Origin: Ochromonas danica
Taxonomy: Eukaryota; Sar; Chrysophyceae; Chromulinales; Chromulinaceae
DNA length: 64,000 bases
Direction: 5' to 3'
NCBI GenBank assembly: GCA_015146655.1
Contig: VKHL01000010.1
Coordinates: 248,001 to 312,000, forward strand
The notes under the pieces: model-generated
The model's database searches: none
What the model saw: only the letters and a program-made list of their open reading frames with translations
What the model was told of the DNA's origin: nothing
Shown: one piece after another, positions 17,089-35,227 of the stretch
Position numbering within the stretch: the first letter of the stretch is position 1
Layout: every line of letters begins with the position of its first letter
Made by a program: the position numbers and the translations under genes

Positions 17089-17827
17089 CACAATCAAATC
17101 CGACCTCCGGATCACCAGCACAACTCTCAAGTCCTCAAGAATGTTCCGCGCTCTTGCTATTGTTGCTTCCCTTATTGGCGCTTCTGCCTTCGCCCCTGTG
17201 GCTCGCCGCGCTACCACCTCTTCCCTGAAGATGGGCTTCGAGAACGAGGCTGGTGTCACTGCTCCTGCTGGCTTCTTCGATCCTCTTGGACTTTCCAAGG
17301 ATATTGACCAGGCTACCTTCGATCAGTACCGTGAGTCTGAGTTGAAGCACGGCCGTGTTGCTCAGCTCGCTGTCCTCGGCTACATCGTCCCTGAGATCTT
17401 CAAGTTCCCTGGTGACATCGCCCCTGGCATCTCCTTCGACTCCATCCCCAATGGTGTCGCTGCCATCCAGGCTGTTCCTGCTCTCGGCTGGCTCCAGATC
17501 TTCTTCCTCATCGGTGCCGTCGACTACCGCGGATACCTCGTCTTGGGTGACACTGAGGGCAAGGGCAAGACCCCTGAGGAGCTCCGCAAGGCTCAGGACC
17601 AGGAGCTCAACCACGGCCGTCTTGCTATGTTGGCCATCTTGGAACTCCTCCGCCACGACTCTCAGCACCTCATTGGCGGTCTGTACCAGGGTGACAACCT
17701 CATCACTGGTCTTCCTTTCCTCTATGGCAACTAAGCAGTTTCCTTCTAGTAACCTGTTTCAGCTTTCAATAGAGTAAATCTTAAAGAAAGACTATCTCGT
17801 GAATTCATTCATTGTCTTGATATCATT
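17089..17827 (+). repeat. LHC duplication unit, copy 1
   Basis: About 739 bp match 34412-35150 in direct orientation. I see one mismatch (at 17779) after the coding region. The match starts 52 bp before the ATG and ends about 90 bp past the stop. Sequence outside the unit is unrelated apart from a short patch upstream. Confidence 0.93.
17141..17734 (+). CDS. Fucoxanthin chlorophyll a/c-type light-harvesting protein, copy 1
   Basis: An intronless 197-residue LHC family protein. The leader MFRALAIVASLIGASAFAPV is a short signal peptide ending at an ASAFAP motif, the bipartite plastid-import signal of secondary red plastids. The two chlorophyll-binding helices are visible as ESELKHGRVAQLAVLG (residues about 66-81) and QELNHGRLAMLAILE (about 153-167), with a middle hydrophobic helix around ALGWLQIFFLIGAVDYRGY. 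Length and spacing fit the LHCF/LHCR-type FCP group. Codons are strongly C-ending, unlike the AT-ending neighbours, as expected for very high expression. It is identical in protein sequence to the copy at 34464-35057. Confidence 0.95.
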   Translation: MFRALAIVASLIGASAFAPVARRATTSSLKMGFENEAGVTAPAGFFDPLGLSKDIDQATFDQYRESELKHGRVAQLAVLGYIVPEIFKFPGDIAPGISFDSIPNGVAAIQAVPALGWLQIFFLIGAVDYRGYLVLGDTEGKGKTPEELRKAQDQELNHGRLAMLAILELLRHDSQHLIGGLYQGDNLITGLPFLYGN

Positions 17828-17863
17828 TTTTATTATAATCTCTGTTTTGATTTTTGATTGGTA

Positions 17864-18701: not shown

Positions 18702-21700
18702 ATGGATCCCACACGAATCGAATCCTATCTGAGATCTACCTGCTCTGTTCTTGACTTCGATATTGGAGAATTATGGTGTGCTCGTAAACTGCCAGGTAGT
18801 GTTCCTTTGTTTTTTTTGTTGTCTTTTGTGTCGATATGATAGCTAATCATTTTTTTCTTTCCGTGGAAAACAGAACAAAGACCTTTGTTGAAATTTATTC
18901 AATTGTATACCAGTCCTACCTATGAGGACTTCCATTCTTTGCTCGTTCAACCGGATCAATTGTTGGATATGAGCCATCATGATGAAGATAAGCACCGCTT
19001 CTCTCCTGTTATTTGCAGAAGTGTGTGCGAAGGTGGTCAAATCGTCTGGGCTAATACTCGCGTTTCACAGGGTCTTACGGGACGCATTGATTTACCGCTA
19101 AACACGGCTGTAGGGGTACCAGTATGTTCAATTGGGAACGATGTGTATATCCTCGTTCTCTTCGCTGTGGGCATTATAAACATGACCCCTGCTGCGGTCG
19201 AGTATTTGTCAACTGTGGCAAGGGCTGTTGCTGAAGGAGCCAATGGATTCCTGAGTGCCTCGTTTTTCTCGAGAGTGTCGCCCGCCAACACTGAACATTT
19301 CGTGGGTGTATTTGATATCTCCGAGCTAATTCGCAAGTATTCTAATGAAGTCGAATTCCATTTGTTGCCAATGGGGAAGTTGCAAAAGTATTTCGATTGT
19401 CATGAGATTTTACTTTTCTGTGATCTCTTCATGGATTTTAAAATGTCTCGAGACGGACGATTTACGGCCAAGCAGCTTGAAAGTCTTCGAGAGACTTACA
19501 AAGCAACCAGAGAACGCAGTGACAGTGCATCAAGTGCAGGTAGCCAAATTTGGGACCTCGGACACGCTGATGCGCAATCTGCTAAAGAAATCAAAGATGT
19601 GTTGGACAGTGTCACCGCATCTGCTTCTTCAAATAAGATTGCTGATGGCAATCACGGTTCGGGAGACCTGATTATTTCCCATAATAGTCATCATCATGGT
19701 GTTTACAGTGTTGATTTAAATTCGATAGAAATCGAACTGGATTCCGACAAGAAAGTTGAGCCGTCATTGGGCAGTAAGTATTCTGGCGACTTTTTCGACA
19801 ATGAATGTGGGGCAAATGGACATGAGGTGAATCGTTCCATTCTTCATATTTATGCACATATGACCTACAAAATAAACCAATGCCGATTTCATGAATTCAT
19901 GATCGCGATGCTGGGGATGACTGTATTTGAAGCAGCAGAATTATGGCTTGTATCGGAACGTAAAGCAGATCTATTCCTTGCTGCTGCAGTCTACCGTTCG
20001 AGTGTAATGCAAAAGTGGATATCATTAAGCGAGACACTTCGTCTTCAAGTTGGAGCCGACGTTCCGGGAAGAGTGGTTGAGAGTGGAAGAAGCTACTGGG
20101 ATGCTGACTATTCCCAGCAAGAAGTCCTAAAAGATGGAATCTTCGATCCTCGCGTGCAAGCTGCACAAGACCTAGGAGTGCATACTGCCTTCGGTGTTCC
20201 TCTTCCAGGTGTTACGGGCATTTGTGGAACGATCGTCTTCTATTCGTCTAAACCGGACTTTCGAGCAGAACCTTTGGTTGCTCTTTTGGTTGAAAAAGCT
20301 GTACAGCTTATGGTTCCTGTTTCTATCGAGTCACAATTTGCCAAGCTTGAGAATGGGTCGTTTACAGAAACGACTAGCGATCCCCAAATTGTCCACCCTG
20401 CCATGTCCTTATCCAGATGGGTTTCTTCTATAGAGGCGTCATCGTCCCATCAAGATGCTTCCCTGGAGCAACCTTTTAAAGTATCAACTACTACTGTGAA
20501 TGCTTCGATACAAGTGAATACTCTCCCTCCTCAGCTTTGTACCTCAGACTTCGAGCAAAGGCTTCAGATTTGTCGTTCTCTGGTCAATAGCAAACAGCCC
20601 GAACCTTATTGTGGGGATTGTTCCAATCCACTTGGAATGTATATTCCCAACACACCCATCTCTGCTACATTAGTGTCTCATGACCAACAGTACTATCAAT
20701 TACCAGATTATTATTCCGCGAACATGGGTGGTTTCAACTCAGGAACTATGCCCATGCAATCGGGCTCGCAAGCTCAAATGTCAATTATGCAAACGCATAA
20801 TGTTATCACGCCAACGAACGAAAACGTTTCTGCCGCAGCTAATGCTTTAGCAAACTTTGCCAAAGTGGAATGGAGGAACTACATTCCCGGCACGGTTGAT
20901 CCTTCTCTAAATGAGTATGGTCGCCCAAGAACAGAATCTGAATGTCTCACCATCAACGACGCAACGACAGGAGCAGCTTTGCCGCTATGCAAAGTTGAAG
21001 GTTGTGCTTCGAATGTGGAAAACAGTTCAGCACAATATTGCGCTGCTCACCGCAGCACCAGACGTTGCCAGAAAGAAGGGTGCAACAAGTGCGCTCAAGG
21101 TGCTACCAAGTTCTGCATTGCTCATGGAGGTGGTCGCCGCTGCACTTTCCCCGGTTGCTTCAAGGGAGCTCGCGATAAGTTCTTCTGCGCAGCTCACGGA
21201 GGTGGAAAGCGTTGCACTCAAGAAGGCTGCTCGAAGTCTGCGGTGGGAGGGTCGAACTTGTGCACTGCTCATGGAGGAGGCAAACGCTGCCAGTATCCAG
21301 GATGCACTAAGTCTTCCCAATCGAATACGATGTATTGTGTGCGACATGGAGGAGGTCGCTCTTGCATGTTCCAGGGATGCACAAAGGTGAGTCAAGGGTT
21401 GTTTGATATGTTGTGCATATGGGATGTGATGACTAACCGTTGTTGTTCTATGTTGATCTGTTATGATATTAGGTGGCAAGAGGCAAAACCGATTTCTGTG
21501 CAGCTCATGGAGGAGGAGTTCGTTGTCGCATAACCAACTGTAACAAGTTGGCTGTGGGTAGTCAACAATTATGCCGCACTCATTCGCATGCTCTTCATGG
21601 AAATTCTACCATGAGCGGTAATGGCAAAGGAGTTCGCAAAGTTAGCGTCGGGGACGATGACGACCTTGACACCGCTTCAATGTCAAGTCAGAGTCGACCT

Positions 21701-21751: not shown

Positions 21752-21973
21752 GGGACAACTCACCAATTTTGCTCTTTTAATGTTTGACAGCCTATTGTTA
21801 TGTTCTTCTGTGAGTTATTATTTGTTTGTTGTTACTTCTTCGTGAGAGGGCTTTTCAAAGTGCCGTATTTTAGCCCAGGCCCCAAGAGTTTTTTGAGGTC
21901 TCATATGAGCTATTCATAGAATAAAATATCTTGATGCTGAGACCATGTGTTAGAGAGATTTAAATTTACTTTG

Positions 21974-22038
21974 CTTTGGAAACCATGTGTCAGCGCAGAC
22001 TGTGGTAATGTCTTCGCGTCATTCCCTGGTTTCCCAAG
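21974..22038 (-). promoter_or_regulatory. SECIS-like stem-loop in 3' UTR of deiodinase-like gene
   Basis: Read on the minus strand, helix I pairs GGAAACCA (22034-22027) with TGGTTTCC (21985-21978), plus three more pairs beyond one mismatch. A small internal loop follows (GGGA and ACA). Then come opposed TGAC/TGAC strands, which give the tandem G.A/A.G quartet, the 5' side reading AATGA. Helix II is GCGAAGAC with GTCTGCGC (one mismatch). The apical loop is nine bases, ATTACCACA, with CC where many SECIS elements carry AA. CC variants are known (for example SelM and SelO). It starts about 45 nt past the stop codon at 22083. The topology is that of a eukaryotic SECIS. Confidence 0.85.
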
Positions 22039-22082
22039 TGTCCAACCTTTAACATTTTTGTTCTTTCCACTAAAACGCTGAG

Positions 22083-23561
22083 TTAAATATCTCCTCGTTC
22101 ACGAAGAAAGACCTCCAATTGAGTGGAGAAAGAGCTATCTCTGGTTCCTGGGCGACTCGTTGACATTTGTCCCTGGAATATGATCATGCCTTGTTGATCG
22201 ATGGCGTATAATTGATCAGGCCATGCAGCAAAGAAGTTGTTGAAGTCATTTGACCATGAATCCGTGCAGATAACGTCTGCATCCGTCAAACAGTGCATCT
22301 GCTTACTTGCTGTCTTTGCCATTCGAATACGATCTTTCAGGCTGTGATGCTGAGGATATTCGCAATCGGTGTATCCAATGGGCCAACCATTTTGAATGCG
22401 TCCTTTTTCATCTCTCTCCACGAAATGAGCCTCAAGAATATAAACAACCGCCATTATTGCAATCTTTCGATAAGTTCGCATAAATCGCGTGTAGTCATTG
22501 TCTGAGGCTCGAAACGGAGGTCAGGTTAATGAACCAGCAAATATTACCAATAGCTTGTTCATTCTTTTAGAGAGATCAAGAAGATGACCTAAACTATATG
22601 GTTTTCCGTCCATTTGACTCAAAGCAATATTGCGAGGAGCTGGACAAGGTAACTGAGGGGGCTCTTTGATAATGTTTAATCTGAGGAAGAAAACGTTATC
22701 TCGAATGGCAGGGCATTGAGTAAACGGTTGCAAAGCCTTCCGATAGTTATGTAAGATATCATAAAATGGATCACATGGGATACCATGCCAAAATAAAATA
22801 GCCATTTGAATATCATCTTCAAGCAACCATCCATTTTCTCTAAGATGCTTGTACTCACTACTTACACGACTGATCTTATAGAGGTGTTGTGTCATATCCT
22901 GTACACGAAGATGTGCCTCAGCATATAACAAATGTGCAGCAATCTCTTCGTTTAATTGAAATTCTCCAGTGTCGGTGGAGAAACAAGAACAGAGATGGAA
23001 AGGACAGTCTTCATGCAATAAACAACATGTCCTCCCAAACATTTCAACTATCCGCTTCTCCATATTCTTTCCATCACCATCCATAAGATCAACCAGTATG
23101 TTAGCTGACTCCTCACTATACCCGCCCTCCATCAGAGCGACTACCAGACTTGAGCGATCACCTGACCAACCGAATGCCTCACAAGCTTTCGCTATGTCTG
23201 ATAATGACATCTTGTCCCGCAGAGTGATCGCCACTGTTGCCTTATTCTCCTCTCCTGAGAAAGTCTTCGAGCAACCATCACATCGAACATCCTTCGCATC
23301 AAACCCGCGATCTCTCCATTCATTGATCGCTTCCAGCTTCAACACAGACTTGAAATGTTCCGAAAATCGACTGTAACATTCAGGACAAATGTCCACATTC
23401 TTCGCTCGATCTGTATAGACCACAGCTCGACTGGTAGAAGAAGTGGCGGTGGGTTCGGGTCTCGGTGAGGGTCGTGAGGAGAAGAAGCCACCAATTAAAG
23501 ATGAGCCATGAGCCATTCTTTTCGTAGGAAGACCTTCCTTAGAATGAAATAAGGAGTACAT
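22083..23561 (-). CDS. Deiodinase-like selenoprotein with N-terminal zinc-binding region
   Basis: An intronless frame of 492 codons with one internal UGA at codon 347. The C-terminal 165 residues match the iodothyronine deiodinase thioredoxin-like fold: LLVIFAGSLT-U-PPFR (deiodinases have GSCTUPPF), VVYILEAHF (YIEEAH), GWPIG, PQHHSLKDRI (IPQHRSLEDR), and AAWPDQLYAIDQQGMIIFQG (GAWPERLYV...GKIVYQG). Residues 59-62 (CPEC) and 94-97 (CDGC) form a likely zinc site, followed by a helical region of UBA-like appearance and more Cys near 179-193. Family members are reductive selenoenzymes; the substrate here is unknown. Translating UGA as stop would remove the whole catalytic fold. A SECIS-like element follows. 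The start is the first ATG of the frame. Part of the N-terminal coding region is copied in inverted orientation at 23853-24282. Confidence 0.88.
22521..22523 (-). other. Selenocysteine UGA codon
   Basis: The in-frame UGA lies between Thr and Pro-Pro-Phe, exactly where deiodinases carry their catalytic selenocysteine. The conserved fold continues in the same frame for 145 codons after it. Confidence 0.88.
23090..23519 (-). repeat. 430-bp inverted duplicate tract, arm 1
   Basis: This tract lies within the deiodinase-like gene. Its reverse complement matches 23853-24282 with one difference that I could see. The arms are separated by about 330 bp, so single strands could fold into a long hairpin. 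Confidence 0.93.
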
Positions 23562-23789: not shown

Positions 23790-24323
23790 ATGATGATGTA
23801 TCATCCTTCATCGTTGAGGAGGCAATTGAAGAAGGAAGGTGTTCCTCAGAAGAGAATGGCTCATGGCTCATCTTTAATTGGTGGCTTCTTCTCCTCACGA
23901 CCCTCACCGAGACCCGAACCCACCGCCACTTCTTCTACCAGTCGAGCTGTGGTCTATACAGATCGAGCGAAGAATGTGGACATTTGTCCTGAATGTTACA
24001 GTCGATTTTCGGAACATTTCAAGTCTGTGTTGAAGCTGGAAGCGATCAATGAATGGAGAGATCGCGGGTTTGATGCGAAGGATGTTCGATGTGATGGTTG
24101 CTCGAAGACTTTCTCAGGAGAGGAGAATAAGGCAACAGTGGCGATCACTCTGCGGGACAAGATGTCATTATCAGACATAGCGAAAGCTTGTGAGGCATTC
24201 GGTTGGTCAGGTGATCGTTCAAGTCTGGTAGTCGCTCTGATGGAGGGCGGGTATAGTGAGGAGTCAGCTAACATACTGGTTGGTCTTCTCCGCGTTGAGC
24301 CTAAGGAGATGTCCGAATGCTGA
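23790..24323 (+). CDS. Truncated inverted copy of the deiodinase-like gene's N-terminal region
   Basis: A 177-residue frame starts MMMYHPSSLRR. Its region from RMAHGSSLIGG to YSEESANILV is identical to residues about 15-157 of the deiodinase-like protein, including both CxxC motifs. Upstream, KKEGVPQKR versus KEGLPTKR shows older divergence. Downstream the frame runs into 13 unrelated residues and stops. The thioredoxin-like catalytic fold and SECIS are absent. It may be an expressed short zinc-binding protein or a decaying fragment. The identical middle and diverged edge suggest a gene conversion tract in an older paralogue. Confidence 0.55.
   Translation: MMMYHPSSLRRQLKKEGVPQKRMAHGSSLIGGFFSSRPSPRPEPTATSSTSRAVVYTDRAKNVDICPECYSRFSEHFKSVLKLEAINEWRDRGFDAKDVRCDGCSKTFSGEENKATVAITLRDKMSLSDIAKACEAFGWSGDRSSLVVALMEGGYSEESANILVGLLRVEPKEMSEC
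23853..24282 (+). repeat. 430-bp inverted duplicate tract, arm 2
   Basis: Partner of 23090-23519. Identity begins sharply seven bases before the shared ATGG... codons and ends sharply after the codons for NILV. Confidence 0.93.
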
Positions 24324-25012: not shown

Positions 25013-25543
25013 TTAAGTGTCAATACGCTTCTCATAACAGCTAAAGGCGATATCAGCATAAATAGGAGGCAGATTACGCAACTTCACATCGCCACCATAT
25101 TGATACCCCAGCTTCTCAAAGATATGTCTCATAGGAAGATTCAATTCATGAGTATCACCACGTATCACTTTACAACCCGAACTCTTGGCGACTTCTTCTG
25201 CTTTGAGGAGAAGCAATTGAGCAATACCTCTTCCTTGATAGACAGGATTGATTGCAATACGATGAGGAATGAGACTTTTCACAGACATATCCCATCCAAG
25301 ATCTTCATATTCTGCATGTTGATCGAAGTTGTAGGCAGCAGTGCCTGCCACTTCTTGGTTTTGACTATCTACTGCCACCCAGAGATAACCAGCAGAGAGA
25401 TCTTCTAGGAAGTTATTCTCTGTTGGATAGGTCTCATTCCATTGAAAGTTATTCTCTGCATTAAGACGTTGAACGACAACTTGGATAATTGCCCAGATGG
25501 AAGGGATATCTTCTGAGGTAGCTTGACGCAATATAATGGACAT
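25013..25543 (-). CDS. GNAT family N-acetyltransferase 1
   Basis: A single-exon protein of 176 residues. It has the GNAT layout: an N-terminal beta-alpha region (IILRQATSEDIPSIWAII), WVAVDSQNQEVAGTAAYN, then the acetyl-CoA site IAINPVYQGRGIAQLLLLKAEE with the R/Q-x-x-G-x-G/A loop, and MRHIFEKLGYQYGGDV near the end. The substrate is unknown. It is head-to-head with a clear paralogue at 25787-26347, with 243 bp between start codons. This indicates an inverted tandem duplication that is old, since the proteins share the core motifs but differ widely. Confidence 0.9.
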   Translation of the reverse strand: MSIILRQATSEDIPSIWAIIQVVVQRLNAENNFQWNETYPTENNFLEDLSAGYLWVAVDSQNQEVAGTAAYNFDQHAEYEDLGWDMSVKSLIPHRIAINPVYQGRGIAQLLLLKAEEVAKSSGCKVIRGDTHELNLPMRHIFEKLGYQYGGDVKLRNLPPIYADIAFSCYEKRIDT

Positions 25544-25786
25544 GATGAAAGGTAGCAGTTAGTTTTTAGTCTATTCTCAACAACTACTAGTGCTAGTAGT
25601 AGTAGTTAATAAAAAGTAAGGCTAGGACTTGCTGGTTTGTTCTTCTCCTTCTTCACTTCTTTTCATGGGGACGATATCAGAAAATGTAAGAGTTTTATTA
25701 CAGACAGAAAGGCTTTTAAAGTGAGAAAAGTGTACTTTGTCTCTTCCCAGTCCTCCCAAAAACCACAAAATTGGAAACCCATCGAA

Positions 25787-26347
25787 ATGGAAGAATCTTC
25801 TGGTTCCGGTCTATCATCATCTCTTATCTATTTACGACGTGCTAATCATGATGACGTTGATTTGATCATGGTTATGATCAAAGAAGTCGTGTCATTATTA
25901 AATGCTGAAGGTAACTTCCAATGGAATGATGGATACCCTCTAGCTTCTGACTTTGCCCAAGATATTGACAAATCAGAACTATGGCTAGCAATCGATCCAG
26001 CACATGATAATGAAATTGTTGGTGTTGGCGCTCTCACAAAGGATCAATATGATGAATATGCTGATGTAGGATATGATCTGAATGATCTTTGTATTGTTCC
26101 ACATCGTATTGCTGTGCGACCTTCAGCACGGGGACAAGGTATCGCTCAATTGATCCTTCTCCATGGTGAAAAGCTGGCTAGAGAAGAAGGTATTGCCCTC
26201 ATTCGAGTTGATACTAATGCCAAGAATAGTAAGATGAGGCGTATCTTCGAGAAGTTGGGCTACAGCTATGGTGGAGACGTTGTATTCAAGCATAAACCTG
26301 TCGTCTATGAAACAATGAAGTTTTCTTGTTACCAGAAGAAACTTTGA
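25787..26347 (+). CDS. GNAT family N-acetyltransferase 2
   Basis: Encodes 186 residues from the ATG at 25787. The frame is open further upstream but has no earlier ATG. Motifs parallel the neighbouring GNAT: LLNAEGNFQWNDGYP, LWLAIDPAHDNEIVGVGAL, PHRIAVRPSARGQGIAQLILLHGEKL (acetyl-CoA loop) and MRRIFEKLGYSYGGDV. A Ser-rich N-terminus of about 15 residues is unique to this copy. Paralogous to, and divergently arranged with, GNAT 1. The substrate is unknown. Confidence 0.9.
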   Translation: MEESSGSGLSSSLIYLRRANHDDVDLIMVMIKEVVSLLNAEGNFQWNDGYPLASDFAQDIDKSELWLAIDPAHDNEIVGVGALTKDQYDEYADVGYDLNDLCIVPHRIAVRPSARGQGIAQLILLHGEKLAREEGIALIRVDTNAKNSKMRRIFEKLGYSYGGDVVFKHKPVVYETMKFSCYQKKL

Positions 26348-26720: not shown

Positions 26721-27913
26721 TTAATTGAGCTTCTGACGCTTGATGTTGGGCTGCTCTTCGTATTCGGCAGAGCGCTCACGGCTGTCCAAAGAAGCCTCAT
26801 CTGTGGTGTTGCCACTAACGCTGCACTCCTGGCAGTGCATTTCACCCTCTAAACACTCTTCATTGCTACACACGGCGGTCTCATCTTGAGTATGGACACG
26901 GCATAGTTGTTGACTACCCACAGCCAACTTGTTACAGTTGGTTATGCGACAACGAACTCCTCCTCCATGAGCTGCACAGAAATCGGTTTTGCCTCTTGCC
27001 ACCTAATATCATAACAGATCAACATAGAACAACAACGGTTAGTCATCACATCCCATATGCACAACATATCAAACAACCCTTGACTCACCTTTGTGCATCC
27101 CTGGAACATGCAAGAGCGACCTCCTCCATGTCGCACACAATACATCGTATTCGATTGGGAAGACTTAGTGCATCCTGGATACTGGCAGCGTTTGCCTCCT
27201 CCATGAGCAGTGCACAAGTTCGACCCTCCCACCGCAGACTTCGAGCAGCCTTCTTGAGTGCAACGCTTTCCACCTCCGTGAGCTGCGCAGAAGAACTTAT
27301 CGCGAGCTCCCTTGAAGCAACCGGGGAAAGTGCAGCGGCGACCACCTCCATGAGCAATGCAGAACTTGGTAGCACCTTGAGCGCACTTGTTGCACCCTTC
27401 TTTCTGGCAACGTCTGGTGCTGCGGTGAGCAGCGCAATATTGTGCTGAGCTGCTTTCCACGTTCGAACAACAACCTTCAACTTTGCATTTTGGGAGCGGT
27501 CTGTGTCCACCATTTTGGATGTACTGTTCCTTGTAGAGTTTGTTGATCAAGGAAGGGTCAGGAAGCACCATGCCAATCGCAGGAATCGCAGAAGCATCAC
27601 AAGGCTCTTTCAATTCGCCACATGATTCTTCAGGAAGCTCAAGATTTTCTTGGATATCCTCAGGTTTGGCGTGGATGGGAGAATTCTTGAGACTTGCCAG
27701 TGTTCTGCAGAGCTGTAACTTGGCTTCCAGGTCAGCGTTAAAGGAATAATGACTATTATAAATAGGAGGAATGATCTGAGGAAGAGGGGCTGTTTCCTTG
27801 ACTTGAGTTTTCGAACTATTATCACCTTCTATGTCCCATGCATCAGCAGCCATCAATTGCATGGCATTTTCGATGAGCATCAACAACTTGTTCTGAGAAG
27901 GATGAATCATCAT
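26721..27913 (-). CDS. WRKY19-type zinc-finger protein B
   Basis: Two exons (27913-27089 and 27002-26721) encode 368 residues. The N-terminal 140 residues are helical and acidic, without GAF domains. The rest holds the same HGGG zinc-finger repeats as gene A, identical over the homogenised tract at 26907-27448, with the shared intron at the same place. After the tract the protein diverges into a Cys-rich tail (CSNEECLEGEMHCQEC) and a basic end, NIKRQKLN. The segment just before the fingers (LEAKLQLCRTLASLKNSP) resembles the equivalent part of gene A (FEQRLQICRSLVNSKQPE), so the paralogy is older than the identical tract. Probably a nuclear DNA-binding or adaptor protein. Confidence 0.85.
26907..27448 (-). 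repeat. 542-bp homogenised tract, arm B (inverted)
   Basis: Partner of 21027-21568, 5.3 kb away in opposite orientation. It includes the complete 86-nt intron, whose identity cannot be explained by protein selection. Confidence 0.92.
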
Positions 27914-34411: not shown

Positions 34412-35150
34412 CACAATCAAATCCGACCTCCGGATCACCAGCACAACTCTCAAGTCCTCAAGAATGTTCCGCGCTCTTGCTATTGTTGCTTCCCTTATTG
34501 GCGCTTCTGCCTTCGCCCCTGTGGCTCGCCGCGCTACCACCTCTTCCCTGAAGATGGGCTTCGAGAACGAGGCTGGTGTCACTGCTCCTGCTGGCTTCTT
34601 CGATCCTCTTGGACTTTCCAAGGATATTGACCAGGCTACCTTCGATCAGTACCGTGAGTCTGAGTTGAAGCACGGCCGTGTTGCTCAGCTCGCTGTCCTC
34701 GGCTACATCGTCCCTGAGATCTTCAAGTTCCCTGGTGACATCGCCCCTGGCATCTCCTTCGACTCCATCCCCAATGGTGTCGCTGCCATCCAGGCTGTTC
34801 CTGCTCTCGGCTGGCTCCAGATCTTCTTCCTCATCGGTGCCGTCGACTACCGCGGATACCTCGTCTTGGGTGACACTGAGGGCAAGGGCAAGACCCCTGA
34901 GGAGCTCCGCAAGGCTCAGGACCAGGAGCTCAACCACGGCCGTCTTGCTATGTTGGCCATCTTGGAACTCCTCCGCCACGACTCTCAGCACCTCATTGGC
35001 GGTCTGTACCAGGGTGACAACCTCATCACTGGTCTTCCTTTCCTCTATGGCAACTAAGCAGTTTCCTTCTAGTAACCTGTTTCAGCTTTCAATAGAGTAA
35101 ACCTTAAAGAAAGACTATCTCGTGAATTCATTCATTGTCTTGATATCATT
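34412..35150 (+). repeat. LHC duplication unit, copy 2
   Basis: Direct repeat of 17089-17827 at a constant offset of 17323 bp, including 5' leader, coding region and 3' UTR. Confidence 0.93.
34464..35057 (+). CDS. Fucoxanthin chlorophyll a/c-type light-harvesting protein, copy 2
   Basis: The 197-residue protein is identical to copy 1 at 17141-17734, including the signal/ASAFAP leader and both HGR chlorophyll-binding helices. Identity continues in the 5' leader and about 90 bp of 3' UTR. This implies very recent duplication or continuing conversion, since synonymous sites are also unchanged. Its flanks differ from copy 1, so promoter activity may differ. An open frame extends 40 codons upstream of the ATG, but the conserved start and leader support 34464. 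Confidence 0.95.
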   Translation: MFRALAIVASLIGASAFAPVARRATTSSLKMGFENEAGVTAPAGFFDPLGLSKDIDQATFDQYRESELKHGRVAQLAVLGYIVPEIFKFPGDIAPGISFDSIPNGVAAIQAVPALGWLQIFFLIGAVDYRGYLVLGDTEGKGKTPEELRKAQDQELNHGRLAMLAILELLRHDSQHLIGGLYQGDNLITGLPFLYGN

Positions 35151-35227
35151 TATTACTATAATCAGATTCTTAGCTAAGGTATCTACAGCTGATGAGTTTT
35201 GATGGCTAACAGTTAACTTCCTAACGG

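Follow-up and report, generated by a model that had tools for sequence, protein, structure and literature searches.

We asked whether the single TGA that breaks a deiodinase-like reading frame in an alga terminates translation or is read as selenocysteine (Sec), and what kind of enzyme the read-through product would be. The first-pass annotation of the window (the whole 64,000-nucleotide stretch of Ochromonas danica DNA analysed here) had proposed a selenoprotein at this locus. Our analysis makes it highly probable that this is a nuclear selenoprotein gene in which UGA-347 would be decoded as Sec by way of a SECIS element, giving a protein composed of a Cys-rich N-terminus and a deiodinase domain. 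The features on which the argument depends are collected in Table 1.

Table 1. Features of the selenoprotein locus and its surroundings, in window coordinates
Feature	Position	Strand	Basis
Selenoprotein CDS	22083..23561	minus	492 residues, predicted Sec at 347; frame from translation and codon scoring
In-frame TGA, codon 347	22521..22523	minus	opposite the DIO3/DIO2 catalytic position; TGA in 12/12 acidobacterial relatives
Deiodinase domain (Pfam T4_deiodinase), residues 325-465	22167..22589	minus	56.2 bits, cut-off 27, E 3.9e-15
Cys-rich N-terminal region, residues 47-193	22983..23423	minus	Cys positions; no family above cut-off
SECIS-like hairpin, presumed 3' UTR	21974..22038	minus	descriptor match, structure
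Inverted copy of selenoprotein codons 8-159	23832..24287	plus	98.7% identical to arm 23085-23540
Convergent ORF, WRKY19-type zinc fingers	18885..21533	plus	bounds the ~550-nt interval with the SECIS candidate

A coding-like frame with one internal TGA

Across its 492 codons the minus-strand frame contains no internal stop other than the TGA at codon 347, after which it continues for 145 more codons to a TAA. The start codon is uncertain (ATG 23561, or ATG 23516 at residue 16); the calculated mass, with Cys substituted for Sec, is about 56 kDa from the first and 54 kDa from the second. Translation showed the motifs and the 145-codon count given in the first-pass annotation to be correct, the read-through protein containing GSLT-U-PPFR, YILEAH, PQHHSLKDR, AAWPDQLY and GMIIFQG. 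When bases were shuffled, the open frame of the 145-codon tail was retained in none of 5,000 trials. Codon scoring, for which 12 Pfam-matched window ORFs served as reference, gave 0.143 bits per codon upstream of the TGA and 0.121 downstream, compared with at most 0.031 bits per codon for the remaining five frames of either piece.

Homology to deiodinases and conservation of catalytic residues

A family search, which the first-pass annotation had recommended for the read-through protein, placed it well above the curated cut-off of the iodothyronine deiodinase family (PF00837, Table 1). Among the matches listed from a genome-wide search with T4_deiodinase (31.2 Mb), this gene was the only one (51.3 bits, with one TGA inside). 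Solved structures were also matched, namely DIO3 (4tr3, E 3.4e-11 over residues 307-480) and DIO2 (9h48, E 0.0019). Alignment to both ran without a gap across the TGA and set it opposite the catalytic position, where the first-pass annotation had expected Sec from family knowledge.

Identity with DIO3 (4tr3) amounts to 48 of 154 aligned residues (31%), and the two proteins agree at all nine positions checked for a catalytic or anchoring role. Ser167, Thr169, Sec170, Tyr197 and Glu200 of DIO3 correspond to S344, T346, U347, Y374 and E377 of the algal protein, and His202, Trp207, His219 and Arg225 to H379, W393, H405 and R411. Roles of these DIO3 residues are described in the available excerpts of PMC7506546, PMC9141512 and PMC12025243, the first of which links the counterparts of His379 and Trp393 to phenol binding and loop conformation. 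Three vertebrate residues are not conserved: Cys168, Phe258 and Arg275 lie opposite Leu345, Pro448 and Met466 in the DIO3 alignment, and the loss of these positions leaves thyroid-hormone binding without support. To judge from the sequence, R470 or R474 could replace Arg275 after an alignment shift, and C424, 77 residues past the Sec, may be a stand-in for the distal Cys239. The omega-loop of the algal domain has a 9-residue insertion relative to DIO3. Two AlphaFold predictions were of low quality (mean pLDDT 32.9 and 41.3).

Relatives and the equivalent of UGA-347

With the 188-aa domain alone as query, two of 20 candidates from the protein collection were matched. One of these (P0002) is the window's own tail, 132 aa long and starting at Met361; of the algal protein, this C-terminal stretch, truncated past the UGA, was the only part retrieved from the collection searched. 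The other (P0003, labelled 'lgn' and presumably from a metagenome) is likewise 132 aa long, shares 56% identity with the portion past the UGA and was called from the same Met; by itself it reached 27.0 bits against Pfam T4_deiodinase (cut-off 27). Since a sense codon at the position equivalent to 347 would normally have extended the P0003 call upstream, a stop codon is likely there. Nothing was retrieved from the protein collection (211 candidates) with the whole-length protein's domain region as query; the full-protein query found no relative in genome contigs, and none was found among viral contigs and plasmids.

Bacterial and archaeal genomes were scanned with a two-sequence alignment, for which all patterns were placed past the UGA, and 12 loci were confirmed (13 of 72 stretches, L052-L063). 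All are labelled as members of the phylum Acidobacteriota, and their identity is 25-30%. At the equivalent point every one of the 12 frames reads GSYT-TGA-PPFR, and the Ser, Thr, Tyr, Glu, His, Trp and Arg positions are kept in all of them; the histidine of PQH, shared by the algal protein and DIO3, is absent from all 12. These loci do not represent 12 independent events, given that near copies occur among them (94-98% of the compared stretch for L055, L057 and L063, and 99% for L056 and L058). A 7-pair hairpin starts 10 nt past the TGA in 10 of the 12, with an energy that is mostly unexceptional against shuffles, and folding energy gave no support for a bacterial SECIS in these loci, where 9-108 of 300 mononucleotide shuffles per locus were as good.

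Selenocysteine machinery and other selenoprotein genes

Decoding of UGA as Sec requires dedicated machinery, for which the first-pass annotation had advised looking, and tRNA-Sec, SepSecS, SelD, eEFSec and SBP2 were all found in the genome. The tRNA-Sec scored 64.2 bits (gathering cut-off 47) and, by eye, has UCA in the anticodon loop; ARAGORN called no tRNA-Sec at this locus. SepSecS and SelD scored 413 and 423 bits, respectively, and what we take to be the active site of SelD carries Cys. The best PDB match of eEFSec was a selenocysteine-specific elongation factor (5izk, E 3.3e-116), and the protein was below the cut-off of the bacterial selB model alone. An L7Ae-type protein (L049) had SECIS-binding protein 2 (SBP2) as its best PDB match (E 9e-17).

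Two further genes carry a TGA at a Sec site. One, matching Pfam Rdx, has an internal TGA in the context CTS-TGA-G and is presumably SELENOT, a name we assign from its sequence; the other, TXNRD, reads GC-TGA-G followed by TAA (NCBIfam TGR, 607 bits). TGA is also the ordinary stop of the SBP2 gene and of three of the 13 Pfam-matched ORFs in the window. Inspection by eye and alignments revealed a strong hairpin in the TXNRD gene (L031, 2959-3033) that starts at the TAA, one codon past the Sec UGA, a position that we take to resemble that of a Sec redefinition stem-loop. The genome has a further thioredoxin reductase gene that occurs twice in nearly identical form (L032 and L033, on contigs C112 and C79), which would reflect recent duplication, haplotypes or assembly duplication.

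Several families considered as further selenoproteins were rejected: the four GPx sites inspected are Cys, the Prx-like2 genes gave matches without an internal stop, and the CxxC site of the SelW-like gene is occupied by Cys. A second SelW-like piece (L022, contig C61) carries a TGA that lies within the family match and away from the CxxC site, which may be intron sequence, and Sep15/SelM yielded a single short match barely above the cut-off. Elsewhere in the assembly, contig C202 (L051) bears a plastid-type gene cluster with ribosomal proteins. By eye, we take its genes to be tufA, ribosomal proteins, rpoA and secY; the tufA/ribosomal-protein order points to the presence of a plastid, presumably one of the red lineage.

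A SECIS candidate downstream of the gene

The first-pass annotation had suggested that a SECIS element be sought at 21900-22083. A SECIS-like hairpin was found there by descriptor but went unrecognised by the curated Rfam library. The hairpin lies 45 nt past the selenoprotein stop (22038-21974). Its helix I comprises 8 pairs plus 3 past a mismatch, with ATGA at 22022-22019, and its helix II has 3 and 4 pairs around one mismatch, with the 3'-side TGA at 21992-21990. The apical loop of a SECIS usually contains AA; the candidate loop, AUUACCACA, has CC at that position. In the best TXNRD SECIS candidate, helix II likewise opens with 3 pairs that a mismatch separates from further ones; GGAATGAC is common to the DIO and SELENOT SECIS candidates.

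Rfam listed no SECIS for the 3' stretch of the selenoprotein gene at E values up to 10, nor for the 3' stretches of TXNRD or SELENOT. The 143-nt stretch past the stop folded no better than shuffles (z -0.26, with 69 of 200 as good); its minimum-energy structure differs from the SECIS, and its centroid includes it. With a loose descriptor, 12 window positions (128 kb over both strands) scored equally well or better, the candidate itself counted. A stricter descriptor, in its first version, matched six window positions and 19 positions across 281 kb of loci, and failed to pick up TXNRD. After this miss the strict descriptor was altered, a post hoc choice, and the adjusted version gave three matches in the window, among which the candidate was joint best at -20.7, and four across other loci totalling 304 kb, one of them at -20.8; it caught TXNRD at -30.0 and missed SELENOT. 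With two other matches at -20.7 or better in ~430 kb, a chance match within 100 nt of a stop would have a probability well under 1% under this post hoc descriptor. We infer that the hairpin at 21974-22038 may function as the SECIS of the gene.

A Cys-rich N-terminal extension and its inverted copy

Upstream of the deiodinase domain, the protein has CxxC pairs at 59/62 and 94/97 and a Cys/His cluster at 179-193, an arrangement that suggests zinc binding. Residues 16-346 matched no Pfam family at E values up to 5 and nothing in the protein collection at E 0.01 (983 candidates). The inverted copy gave matches only below cut-off (ZZ zinc finger, 15.9 bits vs 21.4; E6, 14.1 vs 27), and a match of the whole protein to an MJ0042-type zinc-finger was likewise below cut-off. 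No membrane anchor was found: the top 19-residue hydropathy (1.14) lies inside the deiodinase domain at 363-381, and 19-residue windows that start anywhere from residue 1 to 282 reach at most 0.86. The protein is predicted to be soluble.

The inverted copy sits in a head-to-head ORF (23790-24323, 177 aa) that has its own ends. It differs from the arm at 23085-23540 at six positions, four of which fall within the first 21 bases, and genome-wide matches to residues 16-304 were limited to the gene's own locus and this neighbouring copy. A second inverted pair (20987-21576 and 26899-27488) flanks the locus on both sides. The selenoprotein may have acquired its N-terminus by such a route or may have been the donor. 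Overall, the window contains three long repeat pairs of 98.7-99.6% identity, one direct (17089-17840 and 34412-35163) and two inverted. Each inverted pair has six differences, mostly close to the arm ends, a pattern that could result from ectopic gene conversion or from a recent inverted duplication. Two GNAT acetyltransferase ORFs (25013-25543 on the minus strand and 25637-26347 on the plus strand), divergent and arranged back to back, adjoin the divergent selenoprotein pair.

The Cys-rich extension without a membrane anchor, together with the head-to-head partial inverted copy, is the less usual aspect of this gene. No published mention of DIO fused to a Cys-rich N-terminus was found in titles, the opening parts of abstracts and sections of PMC7539508, which is weak evidence for the novelty of the fusion.

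Decoding of UGA-347

The sequence itself shows the reading frame, the homology, where the TGA lies and the machinery genes. Taken together with P0003 and the TGA in all 12 bacterial relatives, they argue that UGA-347 is read as Sec. On these grounds UGA-347 is very probably a selenocysteine codon at which Sec would actually be inserted.

Were the UGA instead a true stop, the gene would encode a 346-aa N-terminal protein alone, and the tail would be in decay or would form a gene of its own from Met361. The tail does stand by itself in the protein collection as P0002. However, the deiodinase match spans the UGA, the tail is conserved in P0003 and keeps an open frame with coding-like codons, and the equivalent site is TGA in every bacterial relative, which together make termination at codon 347 highly improbable. 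An intron that removes the UGA, a case that the first-pass annotation had named against its own proposal, would suit a genome that seems to be intron-bearing, as two GPx genes match in separate pieces with stops between them. Yet such an intron is extremely improbable because both flanks of the UGA align to DIO3 without a gap and the identical TGA recurs in all 12 bacterial relatives; spliceosomal introns are not expected in bacteria. Lastly, TGA might be reassigned genome-wide or read through unspecifically, with another amino acid at position 347. Nothing beyond the internal TGA codons themselves favours this, whereas TGA terminates Pfam-matched ORFs in the window as well as the SBP2 gene, the internal TGAs coincide with the Sec site in each of three selenoprotein families, and dedicated Sec machinery is present; we regard it, too, as having an exceedingly small chance of being correct.

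Under Sec decoding, the reading that we prefer, the gene would be a nuclear one in a plastid-bearing protist. Ribosomes arriving at UGA-347 would meet a 3' UTR SECIS hairpin that recruits SBP2 and eEFSec with tRNA-Sec, and Sec would be inserted in place of termination. The product would be soluble, with a Cys-rich, probably zinc-binding N-terminus and a C-terminal thioredoxin-fold deiodinase domain.

Possible chemistry of the read-through protein

In the mechanism that we consider likeliest, the selenolate of Sec-347 would be held by the conserved network of Ser344, Thr346, Tyr374, Glu377 and His405 and would attack a halogen, or another oxidised group, of a small substrate that may be phenolic, forming a selenenyl intermediate that cellular thiols would reduce. 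In nature the substrate is probably something other than a thyroid hormone, and neither thyroid function nor thyroid-hormone chemistry is implied. Between dehalogenation of a small aromatic substrate and general peroxide or thiol reduction, the sequence leaves roughly even odds.

The protein could thus be a Sec-dependent thioredoxin-fold peroxidase or thiol reductase and no dehalogenase, a function that would leave Sec decoding unaffected and to which we give somewhat less than an even chance. It is favoured by the loss of the pocket residues Arg275 and Phe258, by the insertion in the omega-loop and by the existence of relatives in bacteria, where thyroid hormone is not expected; the available excerpt of PMC12025243 also proposes a peroxiredoxin-like mechanism for deiodinases. 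However, the proposed proton-relay residues are kept, as are His379 and Trp393, with the link to phenol binding and loop conformation noted above for their DIO3 counterparts.

A more speculative and rather unlikely possibility is that the gene encodes, in an organism lacking thyroid hormone, an undescribed two-part Sec-dependent dehalogenase, in which a zinc-ribbon-like adaptor replaces the membrane anchor and is also encoded alone by the inverted copy. If so, the lone adaptor could regulate the full-length enzyme or compete with it, and the substrates would be halogenated phenols or tyrosines that the alga makes or encounters.

Comparison with known deiodinase-like selenoproteins

Almost all eukaryotic deiodinases known at the time of PMC3473315 came from multicellular animals, according to the available part of that paper. 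In algae, DIO is one of 42 selenoprotein families, with 80% of its members containing Sec, and the fusions named in the accessible sections of the same survey are SELENOM and GST with MSRA, DIO not being among them (Jiang et al. 2020, PMC7539508). The protein reported here resembles that algal DIO family in being a deiodinase-family selenoprotein of an algal genome, a likeness of description rather than of compared sequences. A deiodinase-like selenoprotein is also reported for Dictyostelium discoideum (Lobanov et al. 2007, PMC2375036); as described in the excerpt available, it is likewise a Sec-containing protist homologue with a eukaryotic SECIS, but it belongs to another lineage and the mini-stem of its SECIS is extremely long.

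The likeness to vertebrate DIO3 consists of the overall identity, the Sec position and the checked residues given above. In contrast to the vertebrate enzymes, no N-terminal membrane anchor was found in the algal protein, its residues opposite Cys168, Phe258 and Arg275 differ, and it has the omega-loop insertion and a long Cys-rich N-terminus. The domain also matches NCBIfam NF038285 (deiodinase family protein, E 7.9e-13), but its 48.6 bits fall below the cut-off of 250, which places the algal protein outside that group.

Among prokaryotes, deiodinase-like selenoproteins are described in marine bacteria (the GOS family, PMC2398784) and in other taxa (PMC13188914), as far as the accessible text of these sources extends, and GS-x-T-U-PPF, YILEAH and WPD are common to the algal protein and the bacterial ones (PMC2398784 and L052-L063). 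Deiodinase-like selenoproteins are already on record in algae, Dictyostelium and bacteria, and the algal gene adds a member: a well-supported algal addition to this selenoenzyme family, with TGA at the same site in its bacterial relatives. Its proton-relay residues, kept without the hormone clamp of the vertebrate enzymes, would make it a useful test of the role of the fold where thyroid hormones are absent.
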